From IMG/VR virus record IMGVR_UViG_3300023440_000014, positions 1 to 34,964 of that record: DNA of 34,964 nt; one strand, given 5' to 3'. Both the position numbers and the translations under genes were made by a program. Source of the DNA: a virus. Of the stretch, positions 4,542 to 28,101 are shown in pieces. A model generated the notes under the pieces. The model ran no database searches, was not told the DNA's origin, and saw only the letters and a program-made list of their open reading frames with translations. The first letter of the stretch is position 1. Each line of letters begins with the position of its first letter.

Positions 4542-5063
4542 ATGGCAACACGCAGAATCAAAACCAGCGCAGTAGGCCCTGTGCCGCAAGACAGGGAGCA
4601 GGTGCGCGATTATATCCTGCGCATCGGCAGGCATCAGAACGATCGCAAGCGCATCGAGGCCACCATGAACGATCAGATCCAGAAGATCAAAGACAAATAC
4701 CAGGCGCAGGCCGCCCCTCATGCCGAGCAGATCGCTGAATTATCACAGGGTGTGCAGGTCTGGTGCGAAGCCAATCGGGACAAGTTGACCAATGGTGGCA
4801 AGCGCAAATCCGCCGATCTCGGAGCCGGTGAAATCCAGTGGCGCACCCGCCCGCCCAAAGTGTCGCTGCGCAATATTCCGGGCGTGATTGAGGCGCTCAA
4901 GGCGCTGGGGCTGGCGCAGTTCCTGCGCACCAAGGAAGAGATTAACAAGGAGGCCATCCTGGCCGATCCGGAAGCAGCGCAGAATGTGAAAGGAATCACC
5001 ATCAGTCAGGGCGAAGATTTCGTCATCAAGCCGCACGAGAGCGAGCTTGAGGAGGTGGCGTGA
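4542..5063 (+). CDS. gam: Host-nuclease inhibitor Gam (Mu Gam family)
   Basis: 173 aa, matching the length of Mu Gam (174 aa). Gam is a Ku-like homodimer that binds double-stranded DNA ends and blocks host exonucleases such as RecBCD. The long N-terminal helix (DREQVRDYILRIGRHQNDRKRIEATMNDQIQKIKDKYQ) and the following WCEANRDKLT, ADLGAGEIQWRTRPPKVSLR and NIPGVIEALKALGL blocks are typical of the family. It has a good ribosome-binding site (AAGGAG). The next gene overlaps by TGATG at the stop. Confidence 0.95.
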   Translation: MATRRIKTSAVGPVPQDREQVRDYILRIGRHQNDRKRIEATMNDQIQKIKDKYQAQAAPHAEQIAELSQGVQVWCEANRDKLTNGGKRKSADLGAGEIQWRTRPPKVSLRNIPGVIEALKALGLAQFLRTKEEINKEAILADPEAAQNVKGITISQGEDFVIKPHESELEEVA

Positions 5064-24147: not shown

Positions 24148-24672
24148 ATGCCAGGTACAACATTAACCCCAGTCATTACCGATGCCGGATTGCAGGCTGC
24201 ATTCAACGCATCAAGCACGGGCATCGCGGCGGAAATCACCCATATCGCACTGGGCGACATCGGGTATACGCCGTTATCCAGTCGCACGGCGTTAGCCAAT
24301 GAGCGCATGCGGCTGCCTGTTGCGGATGGCTCGCCGGTGACGGCCACCCAGATTCACCTGACCGGCCTGGCCGCAGGCGCAATCGAATTCTGGGTGAAAG
24401 AGGTTGGCTTCTGCCTGGCGGACGGGACGCTGTTTGCGGTTTGGAGTGACCCTGCGCAGACACTGGCATACAAGGCTGCCGGCGTGGATTTGCTGCTGGC
24501 GTTTGATTTGTCAATTGCAGCCATTCCGGCCGGATCAATCACGGTACAGGGCACAGGGCAGAACCTGAGCCTGTACTACGCCGAAGAGCTCTCAAACATG
24601 GCTATAGCCCAGCTGGGCACCATGCATCGGCAGATATTGATTGAAGAGCAACTGCAAAAAGGAGGCTTGTAA
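24148..24672 (+). CDS. H: Tail-fibre / collar N-terminal protein (P2 gpH N-terminal type)
   Basis: 174 aa. It has the phage tail-collar fibre N-terminal fold (DUF3751): LTPVITDAGLQAAFNASSTGIAAEITHIALGDIGYTPLSSRTALANERMRLP, then WVKEVGFCLADGTLFAVWSDP. The C-terminus ends in a helical, probably trimeric, segment (MAIAQLGTMHRQILIEEQLQ). In P2, gpH is one long fibre; here it is short and stops exactly where the DGR variable protein begins (overlap at 24672). So the fibre is probably split into an anchor (this gene) and a variable receptor-binding protein. Confidence 0.85.
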   Translation: MPGTTLTPVITDAGLQAAFNASSTGIAAEITHIALGDIGYTPLSSRTALANERMRLPVADGSPVTATQIHLTGLAAGAIEFWVKEVGFCLADGTLFAVWSDPAQTLAYKAAGVDLLLAFDLSIAAIPAGSITVQGTGQNLSLYYAEELSNMAIAQLGTMHRQILIEEQLQKGGL

Positions 24673-26006
24673 TGCCATTAGAACAAACAATAACTCAGCT
24701 TGTAACCGCGTCAGATACGTTGACAAACGAGGTACGCCGATTGATCGGCCAGGCACCCGTTGCATCGCCGGTAAATCCGGGTCAGCAGGGATTCGGCGTG
24801 GGTATATGCCCCGGCCCACTGCCTGCCGGCATGGCGGAGATGCCCGGCACGCGCGATGTTGCGCATGATAATTACGGCAATTATATATTTTCAGACGGAT
24901 CAATCATGGTCTGGATACCTGCGTTTTATTACAAATGGGGCACAGGCACGAACGGGCTGGCAGTTAATATTGTGGACATCGTACCGTTTGTCGGCGGGCC
25001 CTACGGCACGGTCGCCACGGCCAACGCCGCAGGCTATGCCCTGCATCGCGCATTTTACGATGGCGGTGCAATTCAGCCGGGCGTGTTTGTTGATAAATAT
25101 CAGTGCAGCAACAACGGCGGCATTGCATCATCAATTCGATTTGCGAATCCGCTATCGACAAATGCAGCGCACAACCCGATTTCCGCGCTCAGCAATGCGC
25201 CCGCCAACAACTACGGCGGCGCAATTCTTGCGCCGAAATCGCGCGGCGCGTCCTTTTTCTGTAATACGCGTTTCATTTTTTCCGCCCTGGCCATGTTATC
25301 ACTGGCGCACGCACAAAACGCGACATCGACAACGTGGTGCGCATGGTATGATGCAGCAGGCATCACAAATTATCCGAAGGGTAATAACAATAATGCCCTC
25401 GGAGATACCAATGACGCATCCATTGCGTATGTATCTGATGGTTATCCCAACGCGGGCAAAACCGGCTCGGCAAATCTGTTTGCCCGCACAACGCACAATG
25501 GCCAAAACTGCGGCGTTGCGGATATGAACGGCAATATGTGGGAGATCAATCCGGGCATCACGTCAGACGGAGTAAATCTTTATGTGATGAGCACGTCGGC
25601 TAAAATGTCCGCATCAACGGCTGGCAACACACCACTGTCTACAGATGTGTTTGGCGCGGCAGCCCTGGCCGCGCGGTACATCAACCTGGGTGCAACGCAT
25701 GCATCGTTGTGGGCAACGGGCGCAAACAGAGCTGTTCCATTCGGCAGCCCTACAACCCAGACGCTATCAGATGCAACGTCCGGCGCGGCGTGGAACACTG
25801 CTGGCGCTGGAGTGCCGCTGGCGACCGGCGGCGCGAACGCATTCGGCATGGATTACATCTGGGATTACAAGCCAAATGAAATGTGCCCGCTCGCGGGCGG
25901 CTACTGGAACGGTGGCAGCAGCGCGGGCGTGTGGGCGTTGAATCTCGCCAATGTGCGAGCCGCCTCGAACAGCACCGTGGGCTTTCGCGCGGCCTTGTAT
26001 CTCTGA
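24672..26006 (+). CDS. DGR variable protein: receptor-binding protein with FGE-like C-type-lectin fold
   Basis: 444 aa. Residues 1-40 form a short helix that may bind the upstream fibre (LEQTITQLVTASDTLTNEVRRL). The rest is the C-type-lectin variant related to formylglycine-generating enzymes: CGVADMNGNMWEINPGI at about residues 279-295, and GGYWNGGSSAGVWALN with ANVRAASNSTVGFRAAL at the end. The last 41 codons contain the variable repeat. Ten residues (407, 409, 411, 414, 417, 426, 431, 434, 435, 441) differ from the template, all through template adenines. It is the DGR target and probable tail-tip ligand; variation would change host receptor. Confidence 0.93.
   Translation: MPLEQTITQLVTASDTLTNEVRRLIGQAPVASPVNPGQQGFGVGICPGPLPAGMAEMPGTRDVAHDNYGNYIFSDGSIMVWIPAFYYKWGTGTNGLAVNIVDIVPFVGGPYGTVATANAAGYALHRAFYDGGAIQPGVFVDKYQCSNNGGIASSIRFANPLSTNAAHNPISALSNAPANNYGGAILAPKSRGASFFCNTRFIFSALAMLSLAHAQNATSTTWCAWYDAAGITNYPKGNNNNALGDTNDASIAYVSDGYPNAGKTGSANLFARTTHNGQNCGVADMNGNMWEINPGITSDGVNLYVMSTSAKMSASTAGNTPLSTDVFGAAALAARYINLGATHASLWATGANRAVPFGSPTTQTLSDATSGAAWNTAGAGVPLATGGANAFGMDYIWDYKPNEMCPLAGGYWNGGSSAGVWALNLANVRAASNSTVGFRAALYL
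25881..25993 (+). repeat. DGR variable repeat (VR)
   Basis: Aligned without gaps to 26446-26558, offset 565. All 85 positions that are not adenine in the template are identical. Of 28 template adenines, 13 differ here: seven are G, five are C, one is T. The 3' part (CGTGGGCTTTCGCGCGG, 25976-25992) is unchanged and GC-rich as expected of an IMH (initiation of mutagenic homing) element. Homology ends at about 25995, 11 bases before the stop codon. Confidence 0.96.
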
Positions 26007-26015
26007 GCGATTGAG

Positions 26016-26039
26016 CGATAGCGATATGAGCGGTTATCG
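26016..26039 (+). promoter_or_regulatory. Hairpin just after the VR (candidate homing structure)
   Basis: CGATAGC (26016-26022) pairs with GTTATCG (26033-26039) with one G-T wobble and a 10-base loop. It begins 10 bases after the target-gene stop and ends right before avd. In the Bordetella phage DGR a hairpin directly downstream of the IMH raises retrohoming. This one lies within short GAGCGAT-type direct repeats, so the assignment is tentative. Confidence 0.45.
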
Positions 26040-26042
26040 ATA

Positions 26043-26444
26043 ATGGGCATGCACGATGAAGCTAATCTGGATCGTAAGTTCACAGAATTTGCGAAGCTGA
26101 TGAATATCCACCTGAACCACTTCCCGAAGCATGAGAAGTATGGTCTGGCGCTGGAAATCCGGCGATCGGCTTATGAAATGTATGGATTTATCGTGGAAGC
26201 ACAGACGCGCTATCACAAAAAAACCACGCTAACGAATCTGGATATCAGGCATGAGCAATTGCGCATGCTGATCAGGCTGGCCTATAAGCTGGGATATTTC
26301 GGGTTCAAGGCGGGAAAGATTGCCGAGCAATCGCCAAAACAGCAGGGCGAGCATCGTTATCTCGCACTGTCAAAACTGGTTGACGAGATCGGCAAAATGA
26401 TTGGCGGATGGATTGTATCTACACGTCAACGGGAATCATCTTGA
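26043..26444 (+). CDS. avd: DGR accessory variability determinant (Avd)
   Basis: 133 aa, the usual size of Avd (about 125). It is an all-helical protein of the four-helix-bundle family also found as the 23S rRNA intervening-sequence protein: LMNIHLNHFPKHEKYGLALEIRRSAYEMYGFIVEAQTRYHKK, LTNLDIRHEQLRMLIRLAYKLGYF, HRYLALSKLVDEIGKMIGGWI. Avd is a pentamer that binds the DGR RNA and the reverse transcriptase and is essential for cDNA synthesis. It lies between VR and TR, its stop being one base before the TR. The ribosome-binding site is weak. Confidence 0.92.
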   Translation: MGMHDEANLDRKFTEFAKLMNIHLNHFPKHEKYGLALEIRRSAYEMYGFIVEAQTRYHKKTTLTNLDIRHEQLRMLIRLAYKLGYFGFKAGKIAEQSPKQQGEHRYLALSKLVDEIGKMIGGWIVSTRQRESS

Positions 26445-26445
26445 T

Positions 26446-26558
26446 ATGTGCCCGATCGCGAGCGGCAACTGGAACAATGGCAGCAACGCGGGCGTGTGGG
26501 CGTTGAATCTCAACAATGTGCGAGCCAACTCGAACAACAACGTGGGCTTTCGCGCGGA
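26446..26558 (+). repeat. DGR template repeat (TR)
   Basis: Non-coding template, 113 bases, directly downstream of avd. It reads in the VR frame as an Asn-rich peptide (11 AAC/AAT codons). AAY codons let adenine mutagenesis reach many residues without a stop codon. Differences from VR occur only at adenines (13/28). A frame that runs through it (26401-26697) is not considered a gene. Confidence 0.96.
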
Positions 26559-26696
26559 CTCGATACCTCACGGGCAGCAATGCCGAAGTGGAATCAAGGG
26601 AGATGATTTCCGGCGCGTGGGTTCGCCCCACGGCGAAATCTGCACATGCCGCCATTCTGGTAGGATTAATGATAATCTCGAAGGTCTGGCGGCATG
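26559..26696 (+). ncRNA. DGR spacer RNA between TR and RT
   Basis: In characterised DGRs the RNA just downstream of the TR primes and positions cDNA synthesis. Here it is clearly structured. CGTGGG (26616-26621) and CCCACG (26627-26632) form a perfect 6-base stem with loop TTCGC. CATGCCGCCA (26645-26654) and TGGCGGCATG (26687-26696) form a perfect 10-base stem that includes the RT start codon. Inside its loop GATTA/TAATC (26664-26668, 26673-26677) form a second stem with ATGA loop. The RT ribosome-binding site GAAGG is in the large loop. Confidence 0.7.
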
Positions 26697-27713
26697 AAGC
26701 GGGTTGGTGATTTGTACGACAGTGCATTTACGCGTGATGCGCTGCTGACCGCATACCATGCGGCAGCAAGGCACAAACACGGCAAGCGCGCGTGCTTTAA
26801 TTTTGAGCGCAGACTGGCATTCAATCTCGAATCGTTATATTGCGAATTACGCGACGGTATTTATCAACCAATGCCATATTACACGTTTGAAGTTTTTGAG
26901 CCAAAGCGCCGCACAATCTATGCACCGGCGTTTCGCGACCTCGTTGTTCAGCATGCTATTTATGCTGTTGCAAATCCGATATTCGATCGCACGTTTATCG
27001 ATCATTCATACGCATGCAGAAAAGGCATGGGTACACACAAGGCAGCGGACTATGCGCAAGCGGCATTGCGCGCCGTTCCGCATGACAGCTATACGCTAAA
27101 GACTGACGTGCGGAAGTTTTTCTATCGCATCGATAGAGGCATTCTGCGCACCCTGATTGAGCGCAAAATAAAGGACAATCGCTTCGTTGGTTTAATGATG
27201 GCGTTCGCTGATCACGGTGAGTCGGTCGGCATCCCAATAGGCAATCTACTGTCACAGCTTTATGCGCTGATTTACCTCAACCCGATGGATCAATTTGTGA
27301 AGCGCGAATTGCGCGTAAAATACTACTGCCGCTATGTTGATGATGCTGTGCTGTTTGGGCTGTCAAAAGCCGAGTGCATTGACGCAAAAAACAAAATCGA
27401 GACGCTGCTCAAGACGCTCAATCTGGAGTTATCGCACTACACAATAGCGCCGGTCAAAAAAGGCGTGAATTTTGTTGGCTATCGCACATGGGCGAGTCGC
27501 CGGTTTATCAGAAAACACAGCCTCTATAAATTCAGAAAGTCACTGAAAAAAGGCGATGTAAAAAGCGCCGTTTCAATCCTCGGTCACGCCAGAAATACCA
27601 GCTCATTGAATTCGATGTTGAGTTACATAAAAAAGGAGAAAAAACATGAAAATAGTCAGCTACAAAAAACATATCACACCCTCAGTCACTGTGTCCCTGG
27701 TGCTGTCTGTTGA
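26694..27713 (+). CDS. DGR reverse transcriptase
   Basis: 339 aa, the compact size of DGR enzymes, with RT domain only. The catalytic aspartates are in TLKTDVRKFFYRID (D138) and YCRYVDDAVLF (YVDD, residues 214-217). Motif 4 reads GIPIGNLLSQLYALIYLN (about 179-196), the form with I/V-G-x3-SQ that sets DGR enzymes apart from retron and group II RTs. The enzyme copies TR with adenine-specific errors. It starts inside a 10-base hairpin stem. Its 3' end overlaps the next gene by 68 bases. A C-rich, poorly conserved tail (QLQKTYHTLSHCVPGAVC) may be a by-product of that overlap. Confidence 0.95.
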   Translation: MKRVGDLYDSAFTRDALLTAYHAAARHKHGKRACFNFERRLAFNLESLYCELRDGIYQPMPYYTFEVFEPKRRTIYAPAFRDLVVQHAIYAVANPIFDRTFIDHSYACRKGMGTHKAADYAQAALRAVPHDSYTLKTDVRKFFYRIDRGILRTLIERKIKDNRFVGLMMAFADHGESVGIPIGNLLSQLYALIYLNPMDQFVKRELRVKYYCRYVDDAVLFGLSKAECIDAKNKIETLLKTLNLELSHYTIAPVKKGVNFVGYRTWASRRFIRKHSLYKFRKSLKKGDVKSAVSILGHARNTSSLNSMLSYIKKEKKHENSQLQKTYHTLSHCVPGAVC

Positions 27714-28101
27714 TAAGAGCGGTCAATTTGTCGGCACAGAACTGGCAACTCTGAGTGACGGGCTGACATACGTCAGCATGCCTGCGTCGGCAACGCTGCC
27801 CGCGCAGCCCAAGGAGATCGCCAAGACAGTCACTGACGGCGCTACACTATCAGCGACTACGCTCGCAGATCTGAAGGCGGCATCGCCACATGTTAAGCTG
27901 ATAAATGATCGTGTGTGCGAAAAAATTCGCGAGCAGTACTCCCTGGATGATGAGCTAAAGCTGGCGCGCATCTCAATCGGTAATTTGCAAAAAACATACA
28001 CCGCCAGCGCGGCGGAGTTACAGGCCGTGACCGACTATCAGGTTGCAGTAGAAGCGGCGCGGGCGTGGGGCCGGGCGGAAAAAGCGAAGTTGGGACTATA
28101 A
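27646..28101 (+). CDS. Unknown protein at the tail-fibre-assembly (P2 gpG) position
   Basis: 151 aa with a strong ribosome-binding site (AAAAGGAGAAAAAAC), starting 68 bases inside the RT gene. It has a beta-rich N-terminus (KIVSYKKHITPSVTVSLVLSVDKSGQFVGTELATLSDGLTYVSM) and a helical C-terminus (SAAELQAVTDYQVAVEAARAWGRAEKAKLGL). In P2 the gene between the fibre and the sheath (G) is the fibre chaperone. No motif of that family is seen here, so the chaperone role is an inference from position. It could instead be a DGR-linked accessory protein. Confidence 0.7.
   Translation: MKIVSYKKHITPSVTVSLVLSVDKSGQFVGTELATLSDGLTYVSMPASATLPAQPKEIAKTVTDGATLSATTLADLKAASPHVKLINDRVCEKIREQYSLDDELKLARISIGNLQKTYTASAAELQAVTDYQVAVEAARAWGRAEKAKLGL

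Follow-up and report, generated by a model that had tools for sequence, protein, structure and literature searches.

A conserved hairpin 3' of the template repeat of a viral DGR and a reading frame that crosses it to the reverse transcriptase start

Introduction

In the diversity-generating retroelement (DGR) carried by the virus record analysed here (a stretch of 34,964 nucleotides, hereafter the window), the start codon of the reverse transcriptase (RT) gene lies in one arm of a hairpin, at the end of the spacer (Sp) that separates the RT gene from the template repeat (TR). This location raises the question of whether the hairpin serves the start codon that it covers, the template RNA to which it is attached, or some connection between the two. 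We address this question by comparing the locus with its homologues in viral contigs, phages and cellular genomes.

The DGR locus

The element in the window (Table 1) is a DGR: the differences between TR and the variable repeat (VR) are adenine-biased, with 13 of the 14 located at TR adenines, a DGR-type RT adjoins TR, and an Avd protein is encoded. The Avd scores above the gathering score of Pfam bAvd and, at 75.1 bits, just below the curated cutoff of 80 for NCBIfam DivGenRetAVD. The solved chain closest to the window RT is 8ub7_A (5.4e-52), and in an alignment of 15 RTs the motif G-N-L-L-S-Q, which we take to be the mark of DGR RTs, is invariant, as are the first three residues, M1-K2-R3.

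Table 1. Features of the DGR locus, in coordinates of the window
Feature	Position	Strand	Remarks
DGR target gene	24672-26006	+	VR at its 3' end
VR (variable repeat)	25877-25995	+	direct repeat of TR, 88% identical
avd (accessory variability determinant)	26043-26444	+	stop TGA 26442-26444; Pfam bAvd 3.8e-18, NCBIfam DivGenRetAVD 4.6e-21
TR (template repeat)	26442-26560	+	88% identity to VR
trORF, 83 codons	26446-26697	+	ends at TGA of the AUGA over the RT start
Sp, structured template-RNA spacer, TR to RT	26561-26693	+	RNAalifold, 22 loci
Reported hairpin, 10-bp outer stem	26645-26696	+	exact reverse-complement arms and fold
Inner hairpin GATTA-ATGA-TAATC	26664-26677	+	sequence and fold; inner pairs covary (RNAalifold)
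DGR reverse transcriptase gene, 339 aa	26694-27713	+	RVT_1 1.4e-14; start codon in 3' arm of the hairpin

A hairpin or cruciform downstream of VR is described, in the sections consulted of PMC3240598, as nearly always present in DGRs and not as a defining feature. No stable hairpin was detected after the window VR at 25990-26050, with only those 61 nt folded (DNA fold of -3.8 kcal/mol, z = +1.46). The minus strand holds a 102-aa antisense ORF (26419-26727) across TR, the spacer and the RT start, and an antisense ORF is annotated at the same place in phage Bise.

The hairpin and its conservation

The perfect 10-bp hairpin named by an earlier, sequence-only reading of this DNA is borne out, with CATGCCGCCA (26645-26654) and TGGCGGCATG (26687-26696) being exact reverse complements and the RT ATG (26694-26696) lying within the second arm. 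The same reading placed a nested hairpin and a ribosome-binding site in the loop; the former is present as GATTA (26664-26668), ATGA (26669-26672) and TAATC (26673-26677), and the latter corresponds to a weak RBS-like AAGG (26681-26684) on the loop side. From the outside inwards, the structure consists of the 10-bp outer stem, a UU/UC internal loop, 2 bp, a GGUA/CGAA internal loop, which presumably resembles the bulged-G (sarcin-ricin) motif, and the inner stem. The 59-nt hairpin RNA folds with -25.3 kcal/mol (z = -4.1, with none of 200 shuffles as good), and the fold of 26561-26720 yields z = -3.3. A search of 25800-27800 with the Rfam covariance models returned no match at E<=1.

RT-based scans of viral contigs, one genome-contig scan and phage records produced 265 loci with a start position, many of which repeat one contig; after five truncated loci were dropped, 107 distinct sequences spanning -70 to +12 were retained. 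The hairpin could be parsed in 103 of these, compared with 68 of 2140 dinucleotide shuffles, and a parse anchored on sequence motifs alone gave the same result in 100 of 103 anchored loci. The outer arms (97 distinct pairs) show 84.1% pairing with their own partner versus 58.7+-1.3% when partners are swapped between loci (500 swaps), and at most 52% in shifted registers. In an alignment of 75 sequences, pairing amounts to 77.0%, as against 55.4% after shuffling, and cells in which both sides have changed number 224 versus 87, a value that none of 500 shuffles reached. The covariation analysis that the sequence-only reading had called for thus revealed many compensatory changes: in RNAalifold applied to 22 full spacers, such changes occur in 17 of the 31 predicted pairs, including those of two helices located 5' of the reported hairpin. 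The internal loop is nearly invariant, with GUA on its 5' side in all 75 aligned sequences. These substitution patterns indicate that the hairpin is kept for its pairing and for the internal-loop motif GUA...GA.

Two further observations pertain to this set of loci. The sequence ACCTCA directly after TR (window 26561-26572) is strongly conserved in the homologues, and RNAalifold pairs its TCA with the UGA over the RT start, in pairs that scarcely vary. In two loci, L014 and L030, a stop codon falls within the RT-matched stretch, which may reflect a broken RT or else a match that overruns the end of RT.

The start codon in the hairpin

In the window, the RT start codon has an unpaired probability of 0.00 and, at 25.6 kcal/mol, is the hardest to open among 41 starts chosen by hand from the ORF list. 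The sequence-only reading saw in the hairpin a trap that would control the RT level, a proposal that the homologues do not support. Conserved start pairing, as expected of a start-codon-sequestering riboregulator, was not found: the whole start codon lies within the contiguous stem in 3 of 103 loci, namely the window, L005 and, by mismatch tolerance, L018. The contiguous stem usually stops 1-6 nt ahead of the RT start, the distance between its 3' end and the start codon being <=11 nt in 99 of the 103 loci. With the outer stem forced, the A of the start pairs with the 5' side at P>0.5 in 28 of 103 loci and the G in 61. RT and avd starts were compared in 42 RT clusters; that of RT was the harder one to open in 20, and hence no harder overall.

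Pairing of the RT codons with the spacer flank, assessed by partner swapping, was not significant over 50 clusters (p=0.07-0.09). Among the 35 clusters at RT identity >=0.58, own partners pair better than swapped ones (p=0.004-0.02, uncorrected for the several cut-offs tried). RT codons 2-10 show no extra synonymous conservation. In many loci, RT codons 1-5 can also form an extended helix ('P0') with the spacer, which is not claimed here, as it proved weak and lineage-limited by partner swapping and lacks synonymous conservation. A conserved start-codon trap is rejected given the rarity of stem-held starts and the non-significant codon pairing over all clusters; the window is the extreme case, and its start-codon cover is a local oddity.

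The hairpin follows the template repeat

The trap is also undercut by the occurrence of the same hairpin 3' of TR in DGRs where the RT gene comes first and no RT start is nearby. The covariance model R1 finds the window hairpin at 54.8 bits as the sole match in 71.8 kb. Phage Bise is matched as well (40.4 bits), and a weak match falls in a Helicobacter prophage (14.9 bits, E 0.12); no match was obtained in BPP-1 and twelve other phage loci. A search of 398 genomes of one phylum yielded 7 matches and that of 48 genomes of a class one more. Of these 8 distinct matches, two lie at already known RT-adjacent loci, L287 and L289 belong to DGRs arranged as RT-TR-hairpin, and L286 is a fragment with TR and the hairpin at the edge of a contig, with no RT. 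Matches L288, L290 and L296, without an RT by tblastn and, in the case of L288 and L290, also without a TR-like repeat, were set aside as chance.

In L291, a larger fetch of L287, RT ends at 4629 and is followed by TR (4640-4764) and the hairpin (4869-4918); 17 of the 19 TR-to-VR differences are at adenines, and VR lies in an nSTAND1-FGE-sulfatase target. L292 is similar, with 23 of 25 differences at adenines. Scanning of 21 further loci produced 7 matches, two of which are already found loci again, two (L298 and L316) have the RT downstream, and three are additional RT-first loci (L304, E 0.003; L313, E 0.004; L311, E 0.14), each with the hairpin 3' of a TR-like sequence. The hairpin thus follows TR wherever RT sits, the RT-first part of this statement being based on five loci and the edge piece. 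Because the trap is not conserved and the hairpin lies 3' of TR in RT-first DGRs, we regard it as a domain of the template RNA and not primarily as an RT switch.

Two of the RT-first loci have features of their own. The DGR of L291 (29-2212 and 3562-4918) has, in its nSTAND1-FGE-sulfatase protein, a target that fits the defence type, and in L313 a 4-kb stretch contains a single TR and two copies resembling VR (89% and 88%).

A reading frame through the spacer

In the window, an ORF that starts 1 nt after the avd stop, denoted trORF, crosses TR, the whole spacer and both hairpins. Across 99 loci, the frame that ends at the TGA of the ATGA of RT extends upstream without a stop for 100 codons (median). 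The ATGA overlap itself is forced by the MK start of RT. TR, as the copy of a coding frame, would be open in any case, the trORF frame being the VR-coding frame of TR. Within Sp, this phase (+1) is open in 89% of 36 RT clusters, compared with 34% in shuffles, and the other five frames are open in at most 41%. The antisense ORF was rejected as the cause of the frame constraint, given that minus-strand frames are open in merely 20-27% of clusters.

Spacings between conserved motifs of the spacer step by three: inner loops are mostly of 8, 11, 14, 17, 20, 23, 29 or 32 nt, and the RT start mostly lies 134 to 170 nt from the TR-end motif. Of 40 independent closest pairs with unequal Sp length, 33 differ by a multiple of 3 (p=2.2e-10), and the same holds for the inner loop in 39 of 47 closest pairs. 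The sub-segment GAAAT..RGTA differs in length in 16 pairs, in each of them by 1 or 2 nt, so these shifts are compensated elsewhere to hold the total; in the window, the middle of the peptide is off the common phase and the frame is restored at the end. No frame constraint was seen in the six loci of the RT-first/TR-hairpin type, the length classes of which are 0, 1, 1, 2, 0 and 2 modulo 3 (Fisher's test against 48/54, p=0.005). Sequence comparison hence places the spacer of this TR-first clade under a reading-frame constraint. With an upstream ORF that terminates on the RT start and the frame conserved, the locus shows the sequence arrangement expected of translational coupling.

Among clusters with RT identity >=0.60, 25 of 28 have an open trORF; over all 50 RT clusters it is closed in 15, for the most part the ones more distant from the window. 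The closed clusters have spread length classes, a comparison that is partly circular because the clusters were split by the openness of that very frame, which does not apply to the closest-pair test.

In 70 of 79 loci, a single base separates the avd stop from the trORF ATG, a spacing of exactly 4 nt when counted from the stop's first base. Median Shine-Dalgarno pairing is -10.3 kcal/mol for the trORF versus -5.8 for RT (30 clusters, p=1e-4); in the window that of the trORF is weak (-4.3). The Shine-Dalgarno-like sequence is itself made up of avd codons, and Avd may be the reason for its retention. The strength of the RT Shine-Dalgarno does not differ between clusters with and without a trORF (p=0.53); no stronger signal was found where the trORF is absent. 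Conservation of the trORF amino acids is weak (p=0.066 for the changed-codon BLOSUM test, p=0.033 for the synonymous fraction and p=0.097 for the third-position excess), which argues for ribosome passage over a peptide function, with translation predicted from the frame.

Proposed mechanism and alternatives

We consider it reasonably probable, on the evidence of sequence and frame, that the transcript is a dual-use RNA in which RT translation is coupled to the trORF and the folded spacer acts as template. The hairpin would be the 3'-terminal domain of the DGR template RNA (TR plus the structured spacer) and would most likely help RT-Avd to assemble on this RNA so that cDNA is primed, a role suggested here by that of the BPP-1 spacer, on which the putative binding is modelled. 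Ribosomes arriving from avd, or loaded at the trORF start, would traverse TR and the spacer and unwind the hairpin; after terminating at UGA, they would initiate anew at the overlapping RT AUG. A folded spacer, particularly one bound by RT-Avd, would make the RNA a template and keep RT from being made, with a self-limiting RT level as the predicted outcome. Of the two-use transcript put forward by the sequence-only reading, the coupling of messenger and template is favoured by the frame conserved through the spacer to the RT start, and the part assigned to the trapped start codon is not supported. The wider proposition, that across a large phage DGR clade the template is a translated gene, ribosome traffic to the RT start sets messenger versus template, and RT-Avd binding halts its own synthesis, is plausible and more tentative.

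Several other explanations were weighed against this one. A hairpin that exists to trap the RT start, and sets the RT level directly by opening and closing, is decidedly improbable. It accounts for the fully paired window start, and it gains from relatives in which the start or codons 2-4 pair with a segment 5' of the stem, from L112, where a GTG start faces CAC, from the loci in which the start A pairs once the outer stem is forced, and from the codon pairing among the closer RTs; but it is weakened by the scarcity of starts within the contiguous stem, by codon pairing that is not significant over all clusters, by RT codons free of extra synonymous conservation, by RT starts that open about as readily as those of avd, and by the distance between hairpin and RT start in RT-first DGRs. 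Still far less credible is an intrinsic terminator or attenuator that divides the template RNA from RT mRNA. Of 101 loci, 11 have TTTT within the 10 nt that follow the stem, but the other 90, the window included, have no T run, and the idea is rejected for most loci. In Pseudomonas phage Bise (L032 2932-3000), the hairpin is followed by eight T and then by a separate GGAGG before the RT start; there, the hairpin could act as a terminator.

The remaining alternatives concern the frame. A small functional protein of about 83 aa as the product of the trORF, and as the reason for keeping the frame, is unlikely: the pattern GFRADS.SPR..Q..GGTKGD.FR....AKSV......SGR....LEGQ recurs in many clusters and the ATG is preceded by a Shine-Dalgarno sequence, yet amino-acid conservation is weak, the window and the L002 cluster alter the middle of the peptide by compensating one-base indels that return the end to frame, and the frame from TR to hairpin is not kept in RT-first DGRs. 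Also rather unlikely is a frame maintained solely to escape Rho-dependent polarity ahead of RT, with neither re-initiation nor a switch between template and messenger. Such escape would likewise need a stop-free passage with little amino-acid constraint, but it leaves unexplained why the frame in use is the one that ends at the RT start, considering that phase 2 is open in 41% of clusters. The coupling of RT translation to a trORF that runs through the template RNA remains the reading that we favour.

Implications

In the literature searched, we found no description of translational coupling in DGRs, results on template-repeat ORFs being judged by titles and abstract openings, nor of a balance between RT production and template use of the same transcript. 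The hairpin lacks an Rfam match and may have been described previously, the BPP-1 structure paper (Handa et al., Nature 2025) lying outside the comparison. A frame conserved through a structure-conserved RNA makes the balance between RT and template testable with single-stop and compensatory mutants. Both the annotation and the engineering of DGR templates are affected: frame-breaking insertions in TR or the spacer could silently lower RT in such systems.

Comparison with known systems

The DGR of the Bordetella phage BPP-1 has the same gene order as the window (avd-TR-Sp-brt), a spacer of similar length (144 nt by annotation versus 133), and an RT that is 34% identical to that of the window. 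According to the parts consulted of PMC12875486, the BPP-1 spacer folds and recruits bRT-Avd, and an internal adenine primes cDNA; the window shares a folded RNA of this type between TR and RT. BPP-1 differs in having no match to the R1 model and in the end of its VR-frame ORF, which comes at 2964 of L033 and leaves 31 nt to brt. In the same locus (L033 2717-2994), no stop interrupts RT's own frame across TR and the spacer ahead of the brt start as annotated. Another likeness is to the hairpin/cruciform on the VR side of DGRs, for which the consulted portions of Guo et al. 2011 (PMC3240598) report that pairing rather than sequence matters, as in the stem studied here. As described there, however, that element is DNA, lies downstream of VR and has a 4-nt GRNA loop, whereas the window hairpin is 3' of TR and has a long structured loop.

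In translationally coupled genes with an AUGA overlap, the upstream ORF ends on the downstream start, inside a structure that would be opened by the translating ribosome. Compared with such genes, the window is distinguished by the nature of its upstream ORF, which is the mutagenesis template together with its structured spacer.
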